Source: Flavobacterium sp. MK4S-17
GTDB lineage: Bacteria; Bacteroidota; Bacteroidia; Flavobacteriales; Flavobacteriaceae
Direction of reading: 5' to 3'
Assembly: GCF_009848495.1 (NCBI RefSeq)
Contig: NZ_WWEP01000034.1
Span: forward strand, 62,001-126,000
DNA length: 64,000 nucleotides
Within the stretch, counting starts at the first letter, position 1, and every line of letters begins with the position of its first letter. A program made the position numbers and the translations under genes. Below, one piece after another: positions 3,311 to 27,857 of this stretch. The notes under the pieces were generated by a model. It was not told where the DNA came from and made no database searches. It saw only the letters and a program-made list of their open reading frames with translations.

Positions 3311-4172
3311 AATCTATGTATTGCGTTGGGTTTATAGGATAACCGTCTTTCCAAAGCTCAAAGTGCAGGTGTATGCCGGTGCTTTGCGTTCCTGTGGTTC
3401 CGGCCATGGCTATAACCTCCCCCGATTTTACAACATCTCCCTGTGACTTGGTTAAGGATGCAGCATGTTTATAAACCGATATAATACCATCGCTGTGGCG
3501 CACTATAATAACATTCCCGTTTGTTGGTGTCCAGTCGGCAAATAAAACTGTACCGGCTGCTATGGTTTTAATTGGCGTGTCCTTTGCCACGGCAACATCA
3601 ACCGCATAATGTTTTTCCCTGGGGTTATACTGCTCTGTAATATGGCCCTTTACCGGGGCAAAAAGCACAAGGCTTACTTTGGGCTGCGCTTTTTCCAAAA
3701 GGTTATATTTATCCTCAAGCGCAACCTCCTCCCTCAATTTTAAATCCGCTTCCGAAGGGCTCAAATCCACCGACGAAGCATCCTGTTGCTGCCCAGCATA
3801 AATACTGTCCCTGCTAAGCCTTGTGGTTTCCAGGTCGCCTGTAAGTACTTTTTTTATTGAGGCAAGGTACGCCTGGTTTGCTTCCAGTTCCCTCTGTAAA
3901 GAGTCAGACTTTATTGCGTTATCTGTAGCTTCCCTTTTTAACTTTGTGGAAGCATAGCCGGGTATATATTCCCGCAAGGGTGTAAATGCTATAATATAGG
4001 TAGTAAGGGCAATCATGACTATACTTACCGTGGTAAGGCCCACAAAAACATTCATAAGGTTAAGCCTGAGTGAAAAAATCTCATCAAAAGTATCTTCGTT
4101 CAATATAACAAGGCGGTTCTTGTTAAACAGCTTCTTTTTGATAACCTGCCTTTTAAGCCTTTTCTTTGACAT
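3303..4172 (-). CDS. M23 family membrane-anchored peptidoglycan peptidase
   Basis: This 289-residue protein is probably a cell-wall endopeptidase or an activator of one. A basic cytoplasmic N-terminus (MSKKRLKRQVIKKK) is followed by one transmembrane helix near residues 40-62, a periplasmic linker likely to form a short coiled coil, and a C-terminal M23/LytM domain. Zinc ligands of the LytM type are present: HYAVD near residues 188-192 and HLHFE near 268-272, so catalysis is plausible rather than lost as in EnvC/NlpD-type proteins. A TATATTTG element (minus strand, 4190-4197) lies upstream as a probable -7 box. It heads the M23-SdpI-GH3 overlapping group and is divergent from tatA. Confidence 0.9.
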   Translation of the reverse strand: MSKKRLKRQVIKKKLFNKNRLVILNEDTFDEIFSLRLNLMNVFVGLTTVSIVMIALTTYIIAFTPLREYIPGYASTKLKREATDNAIKSDSLQRELEANQAYLASIKKVLTGDLETTRLSRDSIYAGQQQDASSVDLSPSEADLKLREEVALEDKYNLLEKAQPKVSLVLFAPVKGHITEQYNPREKHYAVDVAVAKDTPIKTIAAGTVLFADWTPTNGNVIIVRHSDGIISVYKHAASLTKSQGDVVKSGEVIAMAGTTGTQSTGIHLHFELWKDGYPINPTQYIDFE

Positions 4173-4654: not shown

Positions 4655-6758
4655 GCCCTATCCTTTTACGGGCTTCGTCAACCTCAACCACCTTTACGGT
4701 AACATGCTGGTGCATTTTTACCACTTCGTTTACATCGCTTACAAAGCCTTCCTTTAACTGCGATATATGAACCAGCCCGCTTTCCTTAATGCCTATATCC
4801 ACAAAGCAGCCAAAATTGGTAATGTTATTTACTATGCCCGGCAAAACCATACCTGCCCTTAAATCGGACATTGACTTTACATTAGGGTCAAATTCAAAAA
4901 CCTTTGCCGACTTCCTTGGGTCAATACCCGGTTTTTCAAGTTCTTTCAGTATATCCTGCAGTGCAAGTCTGCCTACATCAGGAGTAACATAGTCATCAAT
5001 GTTTATCTTGGCTATGGCCTCTTTATTGGAAATAAGCCCTGCGGGTTTTAGCCCAAGGCTTTTTGCCATTTTTTCAATTACAGGATAGGCTTCCGGGTGC
5101 ACCGCGGTGTTATCCAAAGGGTTTACGGCATTGGGTATGCGTATAAAAGCAGCCGCCTGCTGGTAGGCCTTCTCCCCCAGTCTTGGTACATTTTTCAATT
5201 GCTTACGGTCTTCAAAAGGGCCGTTTTCACTGCGGTAGGAAATAATATTCTCTGCCAGCTTCTCCCCTATTCCTGATACATACCCCAGCAGGGATTTGCT
5301 TGCCGTATTAATATTTACACCAACAGAGTTTACGCAACGCATAACCACTGTGTCCAGTTCATCCTTTAGCATATTCTGGTCAACATCATGCTGGTACTGC
5401 CCTACCCCTATTGCCCTGGGTTCAATTTTTACCAGCTCAGCCAAAGGGTCGCTAAGCCTGCGACCTATTGATACCGTGCCACGCACCGTAACATCATAAT
5501 TAGCGAATTCCTCCCTGGCAATTTTTGATGCCGAATATACCGAAGCCCCTGCCTCGCTTACTACAAATACCTGTACCGGCTTATCAAAAGCTATCTTTTT
5601 TATAAAGGCTTCGGTTTCCCGGCTGGCAGTACCGTTGCCTATGGAAATAGCCTCTATTTTATAGGCATTTACCATAGAACGTATTTTTTTCATGGCTATA
5701 CCCTGCTCGTTTTGCGGCGGGTGCGGAAAAATGGTTTCATTATATAGCAGGTCGCCTTTTTCATCAAGGCAAACAATTTTACAGCCGGTTCGGTAACCGG
5801 GGTCAATAGCAAGTATTCGTTTTTCGCCCAGCGGAGGGGCAAGCAATAACTGCTGCAGGTTTGCTGCAAATACCTGTATGGCCACAGCATCAGCTTTGGC
5901 TTTGGCTTCCTGCAAAACCTCGTTGGAAAGGGCAGGGTAAAGCAGCCTTTTATAGCTGTCATCAATCGCTTTTTTAAGGTGTATTGCAGTTTCCCTGTTA
6001 TTTTTTATAACCGAATTTTCTATAAAATCAATCGCTTCATCTGCATCAATCTCAACTTTTATTTTAATTATGCCCTCGTTTTCGGCACGCAGCATGGCCA
6101 AAAGGCGGTGGGAAGGAGCCTTGGTTAAGTTTTCGCTCCAGTCCAGGTACTGCTCAAATTTTTTTGCCTTTTCCGGGTCTGCGGCTTTTACTGCTTTGGT
6201 AGTAATGGCCGCTTTGCGGCCAAAAATTTTCCGCAGCGTTTTACGGATGTATGCATTTTCATTTATCCATTCAGCTACTATATCGCGTGCGCCCTGCAAA
6301 GCCTCATCCTCATTGGCTACCTTATCATTCAGGTATTTGGATGCTATAAAATCAATATCATCGGCATTTTGAGCCATTATTATTTTCGCCAGTGGCTCCA
6401 GCCCGTTTTCGCGTGCGGTGTCGGCCTTTGTTTTCCTGCGTTTTTTAAAGGGCAGGTAAAGGTCTTCCAGTTCATTAAGGCTAAAGCTGCGGTTTATTTT
6501 TTCCTCCAGCTCAGGCGACAGCGCATTTTGTTCCTCTATGCTTTTTATAATGGCTTCCTTACGTTTTACAATAGCCTCATAAGCCTGTGCAAGTTTTGCA
6601 ATCTGCTCTATAACTACCTCATCCAGATTGCCGGTGCGGTCTTTACGGTAGCGCGCTATGAAAGGTATGGTACAATCTTCATTAAGAAGTTGAAGAGTAT
6701 TATCGATACTTTTAACTGACGCCGAAACCTGTTCGGCTATATATTGGGTTTGAGTCAT
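4635..6758 (-). CDS. tex: Tex, RNA-binding transcriptional accessory protein
   Basis: This 707-residue protein is a full-length Tex homologue, a nucleic-acid-binding protein related to eukaryotic Spt6. In order I see the Tex N-terminal helical region (SLNELEDLYLPFKKRRKTKA near residue 93), a YqgF/RNase H-like domain (LAIDPGYRTGCKIVCL near 317), helix-hairpin-helix repeats (VSGIGEKLAENIISYR, LKNVPRLGEKAY) and a C-terminal S1 RNA-binding domain (PGIVNNITNFGCFVDIGI). A TATCTTTG -7-like box lies at 6778-6785 on the minus strand. The gene appears monocistronic. Its 3' end is duplicated in tandem. Confidence 0.95.
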   Translation of the reverse strand: MTQTQYIAEQVSASVKSIDNTLQLLNEDCTIPFIARYRKDRTGNLDEVVIEQIAKLAQAYEAIVKRKEAIIKSIEEQNALSPELEEKINRSFSLNELEDLYLPFKKRRKTKADTARENGLEPLAKIIMAQNADDIDFIASKYLNDKVANEDEALQGARDIVAEWINENAYIRKTLRKIFGRKAAITTKAVKAADPEKAKKFEQYLDWSENLTKAPSHRLLAMLRAENEGIIKIKVEIDADEAIDFIENSVIKNNRETAIHLKKAIDDSYKRLLYPALSNEVLQEAKAKADAVAIQVFAANLQQLLLAPPLGEKRILAIDPGYRTGCKIVCLDEKGDLLYNETIFPHPPQNEQGIAMKKIRSMVNAYKIEAISIGNGTASRETEAFIKKIAFDKPVQVFVVSEAGASVYSASKIAREEFANYDVTVRGTVSIGRRLSDPLAELVKIEPRAIGVGQYQHDVDQNMLKDELDTVVMRCVNSVGVNINTASKSLLGYVSGIGEKLAENIISYRSENGPFEDRKQLKNVPRLGEKAYQQAAAFIRIPNAVNPLDNTAVHPEAYPVIEKMAKSLGLKPAGLISNKEAIAKINIDDYVTPDVGRLALQDILKELEKPGIDPRKSAKVFEFDPNVKSMSDLRAGMVLPGIVNNITNFGCFVDIGIKESGLVHISQLKEGFVSDVNEVVKMHQHVTVKVVEVDEARKRIGLSMIIG

Positions 6759-8148: not shown

Positions 8149-8577
8149 TCAGCATGGTATCTTATCCACCCTGTTTTGGTGGCGGCCGCCTTCAAATTCG
8201 GTATTTAAAAAAATATCTACCATATCAACCGCCTGCTGTATAGCCGTAAAACGGGCGGGGATGCTTATAATATTAGCATTATTATGCTGGCGCGCCAGCG
8301 CCGAAATTTCTTTTGTCCAGCAAAGCGCTGCTCGCACTTTCTGGTGCTTGTTAACAGTAATGGCAACACCGTTGCCGCTTCCGCATATTACAATACCAAA
8401 ATCGGCGTTTCCGGTTTCAATATCCTTCGCCACAGGGTGAGCAAAATCAGGGTAGTCCACACTGTCAAAAGTGTCGGTTCCGTGATTGATAACCTCATGT
8501 CCTTTGTCCTCAAGGTATTTAACTATTGCTTTTTTATAATCCGGGCCTGCGTGGTCGTTGCCTATAGAAATTTTCAT
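8149..8577 (-). CDS. rpiB: Ribose-5-phosphate isomerase B
   Basis: This 142-residue protein interconverts ribose 5-phosphate and ribulose 5-phosphate in the pentose phosphate pathway. It starts MKISIGNDHAGPDYKK, the typical RpiB N-terminus, so I place the start at 8577 rather than at the ATG ten codons upstream. The conserved active-site segment CGSGNGVAI, with the catalytic Cys of RpiB/LacAB enzymes, and the SVDYPDFAHP segment are present. A TACCTTTG -7 element lies at 8605-8612 on the minus strand. Upstream of it begins the long AT-rich gap discussed as a possible origin. Confidence 0.94.
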   Translation of the reverse strand: MKISIGNDHAGPDYKKAIVKYLEDKGHEVINHGTDTFDSVDYPDFAHPVAKDIETGNADFGIVICGSGNGVAITVNKHQKVRAALCWTKEISALARQHNNANIISIPARFTAIQQAVDMVDIFLNTEFEGGRHQNRVDKIPC

Positions 8578-8612
8578 GATAGTAATGTTATGTTGTTGTG
8601 CCGGCAAAGGTA

Positions 8613-9203
8613 ATGCAAAAGCAGCAAAAATGATTCTGCCTTGTGCGTGATGTTATTGCCTTATTTCCAGTTTTTTACCTATTAATGGCTTTATAATATA
8701 GCAATATAAATGTTAAAATACAGCAATGTTTATAAATTTTAAACTGTGTTAAAAATAAAGGGTTTACAAATTGACACTTATTGTTAATAATTACGCAACT
8801 AAAAAGTAAAATTTTTTGATGGAGGTAACAATTTTTTTACATACAGAAACAGGAATGAAATATGCAACAATTTTTTTGTTGAATTTGTTTTGAATTTATG
8901 AAACCTTTAACAAGGGTTATTAACAACTATTAACATTACTATTTATCAAATAAACCACTGCAATTTGCATAATTAACCAATGTTAATAACCTATACATTA
9001 AATACCTGATATAACTCAAAAACAAATGTTTACATTTATTTAACATTGTTAACTACATTGTATAAAATTGTATAAACAGAGATATGAAATTTATCTTTAA
9101 AAGTTATCCGCATTATTAACACGCCATAATCATCATCATAAATTTAAATTTTTAAAAAATCTTCTTTTTATGTTTTTAACAATGTTGAAAAACTTTATGG
9201 TGC
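8613..9203. other. AT-rich intergenic region, candidate replication origin
   Basis: This gap has no plausible gene. It is very AT-rich and contains four exact copies of the 9-mer TTATTAACA or its complement (8782-8790, 8917-8925, 8981-8989, 9113-9121). Near-copies occur at 8927-8935 (CTATTAACA), 9047-9055 (TGTTAACTA) and 9173-9181 (TTTTTAACA), plus TTATCCGCA at 9104-9112, one base from the consensus DnaA box TTATCCACA, and TGTTGAAAA at 9183-9191. Poly-A/T tracts suited to unwinding flank them. Repeated DnaA-box-like 9-mers in an AT-rich gap are typical of oriC. This is inference; dnaA itself is not in the window. Confidence 0.45.
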
Positions 9204-9443
9204 TTAAACAATTTTGAGGTTATTTTCCTCCTGGAAATTACGTAGTATTTCCTGTACTGTTTCCAGGTCATTTTGGTGTACTTTCAGTTTTATGCCTCCC
9301 AGTGCCAGCGAGTACATAGGAGCTACCGATGTTATAGTTTCGTTTTCAAAGTAAAAACGCAGCCCCGTGCCTTCCAGCAGGTGCTTTAAAATTGTTATTT
9401 CATGCGGGTAATTAAATACGGCAGCAGTAACAAATTTTTCCAT
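9204..9443 (-). CDS. DUF2007 domain protein (putative signal-transducing protein)
   Basis: A 79-residue protein of the DUF2007 family, small ferredoxin-like alpha/beta proteins. The pattern is VTAAVFNYPHEITILKHLLE (moving between copies of a ligand-type hairpin), then LALGGIKLKVHQNDLETVQE. Function is unknown; related proteins resemble PII-type or GlnB-like folds, hence the name putative signal transducer. A TAAATTTG -7-like element lies upstream on the minus strand at 9472-9479. It is divergent from rnr. Confidence 0.85.
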   Translation of the reverse strand: MEKFVTAAVFNYPHEITILKHLLEGTGLRFYFENETITSVAPMYSLALGGIKLKVHQNDLETVQEILRNFQEENNLKIV

Positions 9444-9593: not shown

Positions 9594-11786
9594 ATGAGTA
9601 AAAGAAACGGGAAACCGAAAGCGAAGAAAGACAAAGATTTTTCTAAAAAAATATTCAAGATACTTTCCAAAGACCCAAATAAATCCTTTAATTATAAGCA
9701 GATAGCGGCAGCATTAGAACTTACTGATACACAAAGCCGTAACGAAATAATTAAGGAACTGAAATACCTTGCCTCAAAGGAAAAGATTGAAGAAACAGAC
9801 AGGGGTAAATACAGGGTTATAGCCAAAGCAGATTATGTGGAAGGTACTATTGATATGACCAGCCGTAAAACAGCTTATTTTGTTTCGAATGAGTTGGAGG
9901 ATGATATTTTTATACCTACCGGAAATCTTAATAAGGCCCTGGATGGCGATAAGGTTAAAATATATATATATAACCGCAGGAGGGGGAGAAGGCCCGAAGG
10001 TGAAGTTGTTGAAATACTGGAAAGGGCTAAAACAGATTTTGTTGGCGTGATAGATATACAAAAGAATTTTGCTTTTGTATCTACAGCCAACCCTAAAATG
10101 TATACCGATATTTTTATCCCTAAGGATAAAATGGGCAATGCCCAGAACGGCGATGTGGTACTGGTTAAAATTGAAGACTGGCCGGCCAAAGCTGACAGCC
10201 CTTTTGGTGAAGTGCTGCGGGTGCTGGGCAGGCCCGGCGAGCATGATACCGAAATGCACGCCATACTCGCCGAATATGGACTTCCATATGATTTCCCGGT
10301 GGATGTTGAAGTATTTGCACAAAAGCTGGATACAAGCATTCAGGAAGATGAAATTGCAAGGCGCAGGGATATGAGGGATGTACTTACATTTACCATTGAC
10401 CCCCGCGACGCTAAAGATTTTGACGATGCCTTATCTTTCAAGAAGCTGGAAAACGGCCATTATGAAATAGGGATACATATTGCCGATGTTTCGCATTATG
10501 TGCAGGAGGGCACCATACTGGATGAGGAAGCCTATAACAGGGCAACTTCCGTTTACTTGGTGGACAGGGTAGTGCCTATGCTTCCTGAAGTGCTTTCCAA
10601 TTTTGCCTGTTCGCTAAGGCCACAGGAGGAAAAATATACTTTTTCGGCTGTATTTGAGCTGAATGACAAAGCAGATGTGGTAAACAAATGGTTTGGCCGC
10701 ACCGTTATTTATTCTGACCAGCGTTTTGCTTATGAGGAAGCGCAGCATATTATAGAATCAAAAGGTAATTCAATACCTGCTGAAATATCATTAACAGGCA
10801 ATGAATATACTGTGGGCAATGAACTGAAGGATGCAGTATTAAAATTAGATGAACTGGCAAAAATAATGCGCCGTAAAAGGCTTGCCAACGGTGCAATTTT
10901 TTTTGATAAGGTAGAGGTAAAATTTGTACTTAATGAGCAGGCAGAACCTGTGGGCGTGTATTTTAAGGAAGCGAAAGATTCCAACCACCTTATAGAAGAA
11001 TTTATGCTTCTTGCCAACCGTAAGGTGGCAGAGTTTATAGGTAAGCAAAATAAAACCTTTGTGTATCGTATACATGAGGAACCGGATATGGATAAACTTA
11101 TGAACCTGCAATCTGTAATATCCAAATTTGGCTACAGCCTTAATTTCAGGAATAAGGACAGTATATCAAAATCCCTTAATAATCTTATGAATGAGGTGCA
11201 TGGCAAGAAAGAGCAAAACCTTGTTGATACGCTTACTATCCGCAGTATGAGCAAAGCACGCTACTCTACCCAGAATATAGGGCATTACGGGCTTGCTTTT
11301 GATTATTATTCTCACTTTACATCGCCTATCAGGCGTTATCCCGATGTAATGGCCCACCGCTTGCTGCAGCATTATCTTGATGGAGGAAAATCTGCCGACG
11401 AAGAAACGTATGAAGAAAAATGCGCCCATTCATCGGATATGGAATATATGGCAGCACAGGCTGAAAGGGACAGTATAAAATATATGCAGGTTAAATATAT
11501 GATTGACCATCAGGATGAGGAATTCCTTGGGGTGATTTCCGGTGTTACTGAATGGGGTATATATGTGGAAATAGTTTCCAACAAATGCGAAGGTATGTGC
11601 CGAATCAGGGAAATTAAAGATGATTACTACACGTTTGATGAAAAGCAATATGCCCTTGTAGGCGAGGTAACGCACAATATATTACAGCTTGGAGACGAAG
11701 TATATGTAAAGGTTAAAAATGCCGACCTGGTTAAAAAACAGCTTGATTTTACCTTTTTAGGCAAAGCCGATAATAAAGAACAATAG
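9594..11786 (+). CDS. rnr: Ribonuclease R
   Basis: This protein of about 730 residues is RNase R, a 3'-5' processive exoribonuclease that degrades structured RNA. I see an N-terminal winged-helix/OB region (KIFKILSKDPNKSFNYKQIA), cold-shock domains, the RNB catalytic domain with TIDPRDAKDFDDALSF, which carries the metal-binding aspartates, and a C-terminal S1 domain (GVISGVTEWGIYVEI). I prefer the ATG at 9594 (MSKRNGKPKAKK) over an in-frame TTG five codons upstream. Strand polarity switches here: it is divergent from DUF2007 and rpiB. Confidence 0.95.
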   Translation: MSKRNGKPKAKKDKDFSKKIFKILSKDPNKSFNYKQIAAALELTDTQSRNEIIKELKYLASKEKIEETDRGKYRVIAKADYVEGTIDMTSRKTAYFVSNELEDDIFIPTGNLNKALDGDKVKIYIYNRRRGRRPEGEVVEILERAKTDFVGVIDIQKNFAFVSTANPKMYTDIFIPKDKMGNAQNGDVVLVKIEDWPAKADSPFGEVLRVLGRPGEHDTEMHAILAEYGLPYDFPVDVEVFAQKLDTSIQEDEIARRRDMRDVLTFTIDPRDAKDFDDALSFKKLENGHYEIGIHIADVSHYVQEGTILDEEAYNRATSVYLVDRVVPMLPEVLSNFACSLRPQEEKYTFSAVFELNDKADVVNKWFGRTVIYSDQRFAYEEAQHIIESKGNSIPAEISLTGNEYTVGNELKDAVLKLDELAKIMRRKRLANGAIFFDKVEVKFVLNEQAEPVGVYFKEAKDSNHLIEEFMLLANRKVAEFIGKQNKTFVYRIHEEPDMDKLMNLQSVISKFGYSLNFRNKDSISKSLNNLMNEVHGKKEQNLVDTLTIRSMSKARYSTQNIGHYGLAFDYYSHFTSPIRRYPDVMAHRLLQHYLDGGKSADEETYEEKCAHSSDMEYMAAQAERDSIKYMQVKYMIDHQDEEFLGVISGVTEWGIYVEIVSNKCEGMCRIREIKDDYYTFDEKQYALVGEVTHNILQLGDEVYVKVKNADLVKKQLDFTFLGKADNKEQ

Positions 11787-15946: not shown

Positions 15947-17632
15947 ATGTCTAACGAAGAGCGATCACTCAATTTCATTGAACTTATTATAGAAGAAGAC
16001 CTGGCAAAAGGAATGCCTAAGGAAGCATTGCGCTTCCGTTTCCCGCCGGAGCCTAACGGTTACCTGCATATTGGGCATGCCAGTTCCATATGCCTTAATT
16101 TTGGGCTTGGGCTAAGGTATAATGCACCTGTAAACCTGCGTTTTGATGATACCAACCCTGCCAAGGAAGAACAGGAATATGTAGATGCCATTAAGCGCGA
16201 TGTGGAATGGCTGGGCTTTCAATGGGATAAAGAACTGTATGCATCAGATTATTTCCAGGAATTATATGAATGGGCTATTGATTTTATAAAAAGGGGGCTT
16301 GCCTATGTTGACAGTCAGTCATCTGAAGAAATGGCAAAGCAGAAAGGAACCCCGACACAACCGGGAACCAACAGCCCTTACAGGGACAGGCCTGTTGAGG
16401 AAAACCTGGAGCTATTTGAAAAAATGAAGAATGGCGGGTTTCCGGAAGGAAGCCATGTACTGCGCGCAAAAATTAATATGGCATCATCCAACATGCTGAT
16501 GCGCGACCCTATTATGTACAGGGTTTTACATAAACACCACCACCGTACCGGTGATAATTGGCATATATACCCAATGTATGACTGGGCACATGGCGAAAGC
16601 GATTACCTGGAGCAGGTTTCACACTCTTTATGTACCCTGGAGTTTGCCATGCACAGGGAATTGTATGACTGGTTTTTAGACCAGATATATGACAGCAGCC
16701 TTGTGCGCCCTAAACAGCGTGAATTTGCACGCAGGAACCTTAGCCATACTGTAGTAAGTAAAAGGAAGTTACTGCAATTGGTTCAGGAAGGGTATGTTTC
16801 AGGTTGGGATGACCCCCGAATGTCAACCATATCAGGTTTAAGGCGCAGGGGTTATACACCTGCATCAATCAGGAATTTTGCCGACACAATTGGTATTGCT
16901 AAAAGGACAAACCTAATTGATGTTTCACTTCTTGAATTTTGTGTAAGGGAAGACCTGAATAAAACCGCCCCGCGGGTTATGGCAGTGCTTGACCCTGTGA
17001 AATTGGTTATTGACAATTATCCTGAAGGTAAAGTTGAATGGCTTGATGCTGAAAATAATCCTGAAGATGAAGCGGCAGGTTTCAGGAAAGTGCCTTTTTC
17101 CAAAGAGTTATACATTGAAAGGGATGATTTTATGGAAAATGCCAACAGCAAATACTTCCGTTTAACTTTAGGTAAGGAAGTGCGCCTTAAAAATGCTTAC
17201 ATTATTAAAGGTGAGAGTGTTGTAAAGGACGCTGAAGGCAACATTACCGAAATTCATTGTACTTATGATGCTGACAGCCGCAGCGGAAGCGGCACCGAAG
17301 CAAGTATGCGTAAAATAAAAGGAACAATACACTGGGTATCTATTGAGCATGCCTTAGAAGCAGAAATTAGGGTGTATGACAGGCTGTTTACACATGAAAA
17401 CCCTGACGGCGATAAGGATGTTGATTTTAAACAATATATCAATCCCGATTCATTGCAAATAATCAATGGATACCTTGAGCCAAGCCTTAAAGATGCAATA
17501 GCAGGGGAGAGGTTCCAGTTCCAGAGGCTGGGATATTTTTGTGTTGACCCTGACTCAACAGCCGGAAAACTTGTTTTTAATAAAACGGTTGGGCTGCGCG
17601 ATACCTGGGCAAAGATTGAAAGTAAAGAATAG
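15947..17632 (+). CDS. glnS: Glutamine-tRNA ligase
   Basis: This 561-residue class I aminoacyl-tRNA synthetase charges tRNA-Gln. The HIGH motif appears in [20 protein letters not shown] (near residues 31-50), the KMSKS equivalent is [11 protein letters not shown], and the [13 protein letters not shown] and [10 protein letters not shown] segments are GlnRS hallmarks. The C-terminal beta-barrel anticodon domain is complete. A TACCTTTG -7 element is at 15917-15924. The presence of GlnRS together with gltX shows direct glutaminylation in this organism. Confidence 0.97.
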
Positions 17633-19997: not shown

Positions 19998-21509
19998 TTA
20001 TAAAATTGTTACAGCTTTTTTAATCCTGTTTACTGTTTCCTCTTTACCTATCAATGCCATTATATCAAAAAGGTGGGGGCCTTTTAAAGAGCCTACAAGG
20101 CTTAAACGTAAAGGCTGCATTACTTTACCCATACCAATGCCTTTTTCTTCAATCCATGCTTTTAATGTTGTTTCAAGGTTTTCGGATGTAAAATCCAGTG
20201 TATTATATAAAACATCGCTGGCTTCAGTTAAAAGTGCACCTGTATCTTCTTTCCAGTTTTTGGCCGCTTTTTCATCATAACTTTCGGGCGCAGTAAAAAA
20301 GAAATCGGATAAATCCCATAGTTCACTCACAAAATTAGCACGCTCCTTTACCAGCCTTACTACTTCAGCTACAAATCCTGCAGGTTTATTTATACCTTTT
20401 TCTAAAAGCGTATGGCTAAACTGCGTGGCTATTTCTGCATTATCCTGCCTTTGCAGGTACTGGTGGTTAAACCATTTATTTTTTTCAGGGTCAAATTTTG
20501 CCCCCGCCTTATGTACCTTTTCCAGTTCAAACAACTGTACCAGTTCATCCAGTGTAAAAAGTTCCTGGTCGGTGCCCGGGTTCCATCCTAAAAGTGCAAG
20601 GAAGTTAACCACAGCTTCCGGAAGGTAACCTTTTTCCCTGTAACCGGAAGATATTTCACCGGATTTAGGGTCTTTCCATTCCAAAGGGAATACTGGGAAG
20701 CCCAGTTTATCACCATCCCTTTTGGATAACTTACCATTACCTACAGGTTTTAGTATTAACGGCAGGTGGGCAAATTCAGGCGCTTCCCAACCAAAAGCCC
20801 TGTATAACAAAACGTGTAGTGGGAGGGAAGGCAGCCATTCCTCGCCACGTATCACGTGGGATGTTTCCATAAGATGGTCATCCACTATATTGGCTAGGTG
20901 GTAGGTAGGCATACCATCACTTTTAAATAATACCTTATCATCAAGCAGGTTAGTTTCAAACTTTACATCGCCGCGTATAATATCTTTTAGGAAAAGTGTT
21001 TCGCCAACAGGTATTTTAAAGCGTATAACAAAATCTTCTCCCGCTTCAATCCTCTTTTGTGTTTCTTCATTAGTAAGGCGTAGGGAATTATCCATTTTAT
21101 CCCTGTTGGAATGGTTGTATATAAAAGTTTTACCCTGTGCTTCTTCCTCTTTGCGTAGCTCATCCAGTTTCTCGGCAGTATCAAAGGCATAATAAGCCCA
21201 ACCGCTGTCAATTAACTGCTGCGCATAGTGCTTATATATATCTTTACGCTCACTTTGCCTGTAAGGCCCGTAATTACCTTCTTTTCCAATGCCCTCATCA
21301 AAAGGGATACCACACCAGTTTAATGCTTCCACTATATATTCTTCGGCTCCCGGCACATAACGGTTTTGGTCGGTATCTTCTATCCTTAAATAAAAAACAC
21401 CATTATTTTTTTTGGCAAACAGGAAATTAAACAGGGCTGTCCTGACACCACCAATATGCAGTGGCCCTGTGGGGCTTGGTGCAAAACGCACACGGACTTG
21501 TTTTGGCAT
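19998..21509 (-). CDS. gltX: Glutamate-tRNA ligase
   Basis: This class I synthetase of about 503 residues charges tRNA-Glu. The start [15 protein letters not shown] at 21509 is preferred because the family begins there and a TACCTTTG -7 element (21529-21536, minus) lies 20 nt upstream, inside a longer in-frame extension. HIGH appears in [17 protein letters not shown] and KMSKS in [13 protein letters not shown]. The C-terminal anticodon-binding domain is complete. It stands alone with its own terminator. Confidence 0.96.
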
Positions 21510-21703
21510 TGTTGATAATTTTTTGCTGCAAAGGTACAATTATAGTAAAACCTGAATCCAGTATTTGGCATAGTTATTTCTGTTTATAAGGGTAGTTTAT
21601 TAATTATCAGTGTAAATAGTTTACAATTTTAAACATGATATAAACCTGTATTTGGCGTTTACAGTTATAATATAAATTGTAATTTTATCGGTTATTAACA
21701 ATT

Positions 21704-25006: not shown

Positions 25007-25418
25007 TTTTAATTATGAAACAGACTTTTCAATAGAAAATGAAGCTGTTTATGAAGATTGGATAGCGCGCGTAATAGAATCGGAAGGTAAAACGGAAGGC
25101 GAGATAAACTATATATTTTGTGATGATGAATATTTGTTGCAAAAGAACATAGAGTTTTTAAACCATGATACGCTAACGGATATTATTAGCTTTGATTATA
25201 CTATGGGAAACCTTATCAGTGGAGATGTATTTATTTCTATTGAGAGGGTTAAAGAAAATGCGTCTGAATATAATGTGGCTTTTGAAAATGAATTAAAGCG
25301 CGTTATGGTTCATGGTGTTTTGCATTATTGTGGTTATAAAGATAAGTCAGAAAAAGACGAAGCTTTAATGCGTACAAAAGAAGAAGAAAAAATTGAACTG
25401 TTCCACGTGGAACAGTAG
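24999..25418 (+). CDS. ybeY: Endoribonuclease YbeY
   Basis: This 139-residue protein is YbeY, a metal-dependent RNase needed for 16S rRNA 3'-end maturation and ribosome quality control. The family core LNHDTLTDIISFDY and VMVHGVLHYCGYKDKS are clear. The first two zinc histidines are present (HGVLH), while the third ligand, His in E. coli, is Asp here (GYKD), as I recall for other Bacteroidota. The last codons read LFHVEQ and are formed by a parS-like palindrome. It overlaps DUF4175 upstream; mnmG starts 49 nt downstream. Confidence 0.93.
   Translation: MISFNYETDFSIENEAVYEDWIARVIESEGKTEGEINYIFCDDEYLLQKNIEFLNHDTLTDIISFDYTMGNLISGDVFISIERVKENASEYNVAFENELKRVMVHGVLHYCGYKDKSEKDEALMRTKEEEKIELFHVEQ
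25399..25414. promoter_or_regulatory. parS-like centromere site 1
   Basis: TGTTCCACGTGGAACA is a perfect 16-bp palindrome, extended to 18 bp by flanking C and G. It matches the bacterial parS consensus bound by ParB/Spo0J. It lies in the last codons of ybeY. Confidence 0.85.
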
Positions 25419-25438: not shown

Positions 25439-25454
25439 TGTTCCACGTGGAACA
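25439..25454. promoter_or_regulatory. parS-like centromere site 2
   Basis: An identical copy of TGTTCCACGTGGAACA begins exactly 40 bp after site 1, in the ybeY-mnmG gap, 13 nt before the mnmG start. Confidence 0.87.
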
Positions 25455-27339: not shown

Positions 27340-27857
27340 AAGTGTTTCACGTGGAACGAATTAATAAAGCCCTTATTTTTAAAGGACTTTTACTGTTTTT
27401 GTGCATGAATTTATTTTCAGCATGTATTACGCCCCGCCATACAGTACAAATTAATGATTATATACTGTTACCAAATGGTAAGGAAATATTAGGGAAGGAA
27501 AAAGGGCTTACAGCTTTTGTTTTTGAAAATAATCCACGCAAAATACCATTTCATCAATTTGTTGGTGATAAATATAACCTGCCAAACTATACTGATATTG
27601 AATACTGGGTAACGCTGGATAATATGCGCTTTAAAGTATTTGTTTATGAAAATGCTGAAATAAATAAATATTTTAATACTTCAGAATTTATGATAAGTAA
27701 TATTGAACCCGATATGAATATAATAGGCTCCAAGGCACCATTTATAGCTTTATCAGTGATCAATACATATAACGAAGACTGCCTTGATGAAAAATCACTC
27801 TTTAGGAATATTACCCTAAAATATTTAAAACAATTAAAGGACGAATACATTAACTGA
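27336..27857 (+). CDS. Putative lipoprotein of unknown function
   Basis: A 173-residue protein with a hydrophobic signal and lipobox (LLFLCMNLFSAC, Cys near residue 30), so it is probably an outer-membrane or periplasmic lipoprotein. I recognise no domain in the remainder. The start is uncertain: the first ATG overlaps the mnmG stop by 4 bp and its first codons read KVFHVER because a parS-like site is embedded there, so a later start close to the signal peptide is possible. It ends overlapping the methyltransferase start by 1 bp. Confidence 0.68.
   Translation: MKVFHVERINKALIFKGLLLFLCMNLFSACITPRHTVQINDYILLPNGKEILGKEKGLTAFVFENNPRKIPFHQFVGDKYNLPNYTDIEYWVTLDNMRFKVFVYENAEINKYFNTSEFMISNIEPDMNIIGSKAPFIALSVINTYNEDCLDEKSLFRNITLKYLKQLKDEYIN
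27343..27358. promoter_or_regulatory. parS-like centromere site 3
   Basis: TGTTTCACGTGGAACG differs from a full parS consensus form only at the last base. It lies just after the mnmG stop, within the first codons of the lipoprotein gene. Confidence 0.75.

Follow-up and report, generated by a model that had tools for sequence, protein, structure and literature searches.

A conserved gene-free interval between rpiB and a DUF2007 gene as the probable chromosomal replication origin of Flavobacterium

Does the gap between rpiB and a DUF2007 gene in Flavobacterium sp. MK4S-17 hold the origin of chromosome replication? This question was raised by the first-pass annotation of the window, the whole stretch of 64,000 nucleotides that was analysed, in which the gap had been read as a candidate oriC. 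The four exact copies of the 9-mer TTATTAACA, the near copies and the TTATCCGCA on which this reading was built were all present at the sites given. The gap was also gene-free and A/T-rich (24% GC) as described, but it extends from 8578 to 9203 and measures 626 bp rather than 590 bp. The distance of about 16 kb to parS was correct; the last box is separated by 16.3 kb from two exact sites, at 25399 and 25439. Coding polarity had been described as largely leftward on the left and rightward on the right. The first half of this description held for rpiB and most left-side genes, but the DUF2007 gene, the first on the right, is leftward too, and rnr is the first rightward gene. The dnaA gene of this genome is located on a different contig (C14). 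Judged by the sequence comparisons described below, the interval 8578-9203 is very probably the chromosomal oriC of Flavobacterium, where initiation itself would take place. Its kind, an oriC, is already known; it is set apart by its box code, its location and its relocation. The following features were recognised, with gene names assigned by reading the translations.

8578-9203, no strand: probable oriC region, gene-free and A/T-rich, 626 bp, 24% GC; equivalent interval in 15 of 20 relatives
8782-8790, minus strand: presumed DnaA box TTATTAACA, from the motif count and the box enrichment in the genus
8917-8925, plus strand: presumed DnaA box TTATTAACA, from the same two kinds of evidence
8927-8935, plus strand: presumed DnaA box CTATTAACA, a near copy; C at position 1 is likewise enriched
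8981-8989, minus strand: presumed DnaA box TTATTAACA, from motif count and genus box enrichment
9043-9196, plus strand: core of 154 bp (profile R1), without gaps across 16 genomes; a single match each in 137 of 150 genus genomes
9104-9112, plus strand: TTATCCGCA, the upstream box of a tandem pair; TTAT alone is invariant across 16 genomes
9113-9121, plus strand: TTATTAACA, downstream half of the tandem pair; ATTAACA is invariant in 16 of 16
9125-9142, plus strand: triplet-phased array CAT AAT CAT CAT CAT AAA, the middle A at each third base; candidate single-strand DnaA-binding array with a putative function
9140-9171, no strand: candidate DNA unwinding element, an A/T-rich run, by composition only
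9183-9191, minus strand: conserved box-like site TTTTCAACA, to the right of the A/T run and directed towards it; the 16 genomes have TTTTCAACA or TTGTCAACA
8149-8577, minus strand: rpiB, left neighbour, by translation
9204-9443, minus strand: DUF2007 gene, right neighbour, by translation
9615-11786, plus strand: rnr (RNase R), first rightward gene to the right of the gap, by translation
21501-21703, no strand: gltX/DUF4175 interval, occupied by the putative oriC in some relocated relatives (e.g. G009, G011); three TTATNAACA sites here
25399-25414, no strand: parS-like site TGTTCCACGTGGAACA, exact match
25439-25454, no strand: parS-like site TGTTCCACGTGGAACA, exact match

Further near copies in the gap are TTATAAACA at 8727 and TTTTTAACA at 8747 and 9173. 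In simulated gaps the mean number of TTATTAACA was 0.11-0.20, and four copies were reached in 0 of 2000 gaps under each of two composition models. Four copies of some 9-mer were found in 15-18% of the simulated gaps, and the repeat of TTATTAACA alone is therefore not conclusive. The 64-kb window contains 5 copies versus 2.2 expected, a number reached by 9 of 100 shuffles. In the entire genome (2.95 Mb, 38 contigs) 106 matches were present, and the gap was the sole 1-kb stretch with three or more of them among the matches listed (100 of 106).

An interval equivalent to the gap was found in 15 of 20 relatives of the same genus, with lengths of 626-1265 bp and GC contents of 19-30%. The five relatives left out were G009, G011, G018 and G022, which have a short spacer beside rpiB, and G020, in which rpiB lies outside the stretch. 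As G001 gave no DUF2007 match, its interval was taken to near rnr; the interval of G016 was trimmed to its last 720 bp for the alignment. TATTAACA occurred in all 16 gaps, the window included, with 56 copies versus 4.3 expected. Positions 9043-9196 of the window correspond to 154 gap-free columns in all 16 genomes, with a mean column identity of 79%. A sequence-only profile (R1) was made from these core columns and applied with a match threshold of E <= 0.001. Exactly one match, as expected of a single copy per chromosome, was obtained in each of 137 of the 150 genus genomes, including 120 of the 124 near-complete ones. No core match was obtained in the other 13 of the 150, four of which were near-complete.

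Within the family, R1 matched 176 of 299 genomes, one of these with two matches, and among six genomes from other families of the order it matched one (G030, in which the core is also beside rpiB). A phylum sample gave matches in 15 of 198 genomes, 14 of the 15 within the family. The only match of this sample outside the family, G473:C25:60995-61084 (E 3.4e-4), may be due to chance or to a distant origin. A core-pattern scan of named genomes yielded mostly Flavobacterium and other Flavobacteriaceae among the 80 matches listed, together with a few looser labels (Flavobacteriales, Bacteroidetes, [Flexibacter] and two bins named Chryseobacterium gleum). At the 28 best-scoring loci from other genera of the family, the core lay beside rpiB or rnr in 27, and this location is therefore probably the ancestral place of the core.

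The spelling of the boxes was determined by counting TTAT-NN-ACA forms, observed versus expected. TTATNAACA occurred 50 times in the 16 gaps (6.3 expected), 86 times (9.1 expected) in 24 held-out loci, which stood outside the alignment yet had been found with its profile, and 27 times (2.1 expected) in five relocated loci. The E. coli form TTATNCACA was found 0 times in the 16 gaps and once each in the 24 loci and the five relocated loci. T at position 6 was also enriched (39 versus 6.2 expected); C and G were not. The genus thus has a DnaA-box array above chance that is conserved in relatives, with a changed box, and lacks the position-6 C of the canonical box TTATCCACA or TTWTNCACA. In 28 loci from other genera of the family both forms were enriched, with 59 TTATNAACA versus 8.6 expected and 13 TTATNCACA versus 3.5 expected. 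The first-pass annotation had named box conservation in related genomes as a check on its reading, and the gap alignment, the profile matches and these counts agree in showing that the boxes are kept.

The consensus of the E. coli DnaA box is given as TTWTNCACA in the excerpted part of PMC5835720. The genus box shares with it TTAT at positions 1-4, the variable position 5 and ACA at positions 7-9, whereas position 6 is A (or T). The DnaA of this genome was compared with E. coli DnaA domain IV (1J1V) at the base-contacting residues listed in the excerpt of PMC5043019; residue numbers were counted along 1J1V from the 432-435 motif of that paper. R399, R432, D433 and H434 are kept, while P423 and T435 are replaced by alanine. 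According to the same excerpt, alanine at 435 is present in some Epsilon- and Deltaproteobacteria, and the role of 423 is doubted. Both alanines were found in 26 of 26 DnaAs of the genus, and among 30 DnaAs from other genera and families of the order alanine was present at 435 in 27 and at 423 in 25. A one-to-one coupling of P423A/T435A to the box was rejected, as the alanines are widespread in the order, yet the loci from other genera of the family keep TTATNCACA. Since the same alanines occur elsewhere in the order, a link between them and the changed box spelling can be put forward only as a hypothesis. The box and DnaA changes open the way to a direct test of DnaA-box recognition. In the part of PMC10225481 available as an excerpt, TTATCCACA is the default search box of Ori-Finder; a search for it would miss or under-count the boxes of the genus. 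Besides its normal dnaA, G007 has a second DnaA-like AAA+ match of 155 bits at G007:C26:25927-26415 (L352), in an open frame of 574 aa.

Cumulative GC skew was another check named in advance. In the window the skew changes sign near the gap, and 2.5 kb separate the last box from the cumulative minimum at 6624. The check was run in relatives, and the sign changed at the element in complete genomes. In the complete genome G010, for which 20 sampled stretches plus L047 were read, the 9 stretches between 1,043,000 and 2.44 Mb all had positive skew, and 9 of the remaining 11 had negative skew. It passed from -0.092 to +0.084 between 1,035,642 and 1,043,000, and the core is located at 1,040,030-1,040,182. 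Ten further complete genomes had values of -0.047 to -0.134 in the 20 kb left of the core and +0.040 to +0.148 in the 20 kb right of it (10 of 10), signs that include a contribution of gene orientation. Together with the conserved boxes and the nearby parS cluster, the sign change at the element in complete relatives supports the oriC reading.

An origin beside mnmG and parS, with the rpiB gap as a mere nearby DnaA-binding or regulatory region, is very unlikely. The oriC has been placed at mnmG with Ori-Finder in Mariniflexile and Algorimicrobium (PMC11278836 and PMC12843772, as excerpted), and the skew of the window is by itself too weak to decide over a distance of 16 kb. However, the ten complete genomes have mnmG on the rnr side of the core, at a distance of 15-19 kb. 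When the 15 kb that adjoin the core on this side were divided into 5-kb bins, the sign in 27 of the 30 bins was that of a fork moving away from the core; two bins had the opposite sign and one was about zero. In G010 the stretch from mnmG (1,022-1,024 kb) to the core has mostly negative skew. Moreover, four relatives with the core at gltX or ybeY have only a spacer of 40-340 bp beside rpiB.

The element is thus best taken as the probable oriC itself, and its position was followed through the 137 genomes with a match. The core was beside rpiB or rnr in 123, undecidable in three (G059, G115 and G163) and elsewhere in 11 (G009, G011, G018, G020, G022, G056, G073, G087, G091, G095 and G137), a count made by eye from position tables in which eight of the 11 relocated hits scored below 45 bits. 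Ten of the relocated cores share a contig with rpiB but are separated from it by more than 11 kb; in the eleventh genome, G018, core and rpiB are on different contigs. The distance to mnmG is 0.6-4 kb for ten of the 11, and in G056 core and mnmG are on different contigs. The core is between gltX and the DUF4175 gene in G009 and G011 and upstream of ybeY-mnmG in G018 and G022. In G073, G091 and G137 it is between gltX and ybeY, and the order rpiB, rnr, ..., gltX, ybeY, mnmG is kept; DUF4175 gave no match at the relocated loci of these three genomes. The separation of gltX and ybeY in G091 is 34 kb. Our data place the Flavobacterium origin at rpiB/rnr in the majority of the genomes examined; a position near mnmG is confined to the minority with a relocated core.

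Cumulative skew was also read around the relocated cores of four complete genomes. In G073 (100 kb read) the minimum was at 1,435,156 and the core at 1,434,738-1,434,875, with 281 bp between the minimum and the closer core end. In G091 (likewise 100 kb) the minimum was at 1,960,485 and the core at 1,960,797-1,960,935, the corresponding distance being 312 bp. G022 (80 kb read) gave a flat curve with the minimum at 974,513, 25 kb off the core at 999,682. The curve of G137 (60 kb read, at a contig start) was flat as well, with the minimum at 3,617, 13 kb off the core at 16,958; both of these genomes are ambiguous. The flat part of G137 comprises the first 17 kb of the contig (L301), from rpiB to the relocated core, and it looks as if the genes there had switched replichore recently and the composition were lagging.

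A dense box array would fit titration of DnaA as well as initiation, and three more boxes are present in the gltX/DUF4175 gap. Nevertheless, it is highly improbable that the interval is a DnaA titration or timing site, like datA of E. coli, that happens to be near the origin: there is one match per genome, the 154-bp spacing beside the A/T run is fixed, and the element coincides with the skew change even in two relocated genomes. The reading of the interval as ordinary regulatory DNA for rpiB and DUF2007, in A/T-rich low-complexity sequence, can be practically dismissed, for although chance repeats of some 9-mer are common in the simulated gaps, the 154-bp core is conserved, the boxes are enriched in further genomes, and some relatives carry the whole element away from rpiB/DUF2007 with its boxes, triplet array and skew change (minimum at the core in 2 of 4).

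For the rpiB-DUF2007 interval as the likely oriC, the position of dnaA was also considered. Location next to dnaA/dnaN is a frequent trait of bacterial origins, neither universal nor defining. The interval is not adjacent to these genes; the distance from dnaA to the core was 0.93-1.29 Mb in six complete relatives, and G010 has its dnaA at 415, with the core at 1,040,030. In 26 dnaA loci no box was found at a conserved place in the gap upstream of dnaA. A copy of TATTAACA is found between -494 and -500 in 11 of the 26, but it was not counted as independent support because it lies inside the reading frame of the neighbouring gene here and four of the 26 loci had less than 500 bp upstream. An oriC distant from dnaA agrees with Ori-Finder and DoriC predictions for Bacteroidota, being described as common in Bacteroidetes in the excerpt of PMC4755523 and reported for Elizabethkingia in that of PMC8994065. 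The interval differs from the Ori-Finder predictions for the two genomes of other genera of the family in which oriC was placed at mnmG (see above; both sources as excerpted). This suggests that an oriC named from mnmG alone can miss by 15-19 kb in the genus. No description of the interval as oriC was found among the titles and abstract starts listed from the open literature, and DoriC may already list it. If correct, the assignment gives a large genus an exact, conserved and searchable origin.

In a tree of 28 DnaA proteins, which included eight of the 11 relocated genomes, the relocated eight were split from the other 20 with a branch support of 93/88, a value short of what the tool itself regards as a firm branch. 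A single relocation event would perhaps be enough, as far as one single-gene DnaA tree can indicate without being a proof. The gltX/DUF4175 gap of the window contains three TTATNAACA, at 21510 (minus), 21581 (minus) and 21692 (plus). Two TTATNAACA with similar spacing were present in this gap of the close relative G144 and one box, TTATAAACA, in that of G110, and no TTATNAACA was found there in eight other complete genomes examined. On these counts it is possible that this slot was a pre-existing DnaA site.

The observations can be combined in a joint reading, to which we give somewhat less than even weight. Flavobacterium would have shifted its box code to TTATNAACA (position 6 from C to A), matched to a DnaA with alanines at 423 and 435, and its triplet array would have a strand polarity opposite to that of canonical DnaA-trios. 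The oriC would have left rpiB/rnr as a unit, perhaps once, for a slot near parS at a distance of about 15 kb, and the genes in between would have kept their order. If this were true, the genus would be a natural experiment in origin relocation, and the relocated genomes allow one to ask how origins move between two slots and how fast strand composition follows.

The most conserved point of the 16-genome alignment is the tandem box pair at 9104-9121, which has no spacer. On its 3' side follow a few bases, an A-phased stretch with phased A at alignment columns 84, 87, 90, 93 and 96, the A/T run and a box facing back (TTTTCAACA or TTGTCAACA). Composition and alignment both point to an A/T-rich unwinding element beside the boxes. 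According to the excerpted part of PMC8287927, DnaA-trios consist of at least three 3'-NAN-5' trios no more than 16 bp from a box. The window has five 3'-NAN-5' trios and is the only one of the 16 genomes that agrees with this definition. The mean of the 16 genomes was 2.19, below the 3.07 of shuffled sequences, and 200 of 200 shuffles reached the observed mean; membership in the canonical DnaA-trios was therefore dropped.

On the same strand, 15 of the 16 genomes had NAN runs of 5-7, and among 27 family loci 24 had runs of at least 5. Of the 28 family loci, L157 had been dropped as it had no box, and the 27 include three low scorers in which the box picked is probably not homologous. The same-strand run was reached by 0 of 200 pooled shuffles, with single-row frequencies of 0.002-0.51 in the 16, but it was the best of four strand and side combinations tried, on rows related by descent. 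Because of this relatedness and these single-row frequencies, the run is reported as an observation only, and a trio role of the phased same-strand array is possible but doubtful.

The core resembles the basal unwinding system of B. subtilis, as excerpted from PMC8287927, in its tandem boxes, the upstream one of which is 13 bp from a triplet-phased array followed by an A/T run. It differs in strand polarity: the phased adenines shared by the group occupy the strand opposite to that of canonical DnaA-trios. With DnaA-dependent origins of the E. coli and B. subtilis type it has in common 9-bp boxes on both strands, a tandem pair by an A/T-rich run, a skew change and one match per genome, whereas it is far from dnaA, has TTATNAACA boxes and is beside rpiB/rnr.

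By analogy with these systems, initiation might proceed as follows. Domain IV of DnaA would bind the boxes, and the tandem pair at 9104-9121 would load a DnaA filament onto the triplet array at 9125-9142. The filament would melt the A/T run at 9140-9171, where the helicase would be loaded, and two forks would depart, leftward through rpiB and rightward through rnr. As in ParABS systems generally, segregation of the new origins would be aided by ParB at the parS sites, which lie 16 kb to the right. All 7 genus genomes searched had two or three parS-like sites each. A third such site in the window, with one mismatch to the degenerate pattern, is located at 27343-27358, directly after mnmG.
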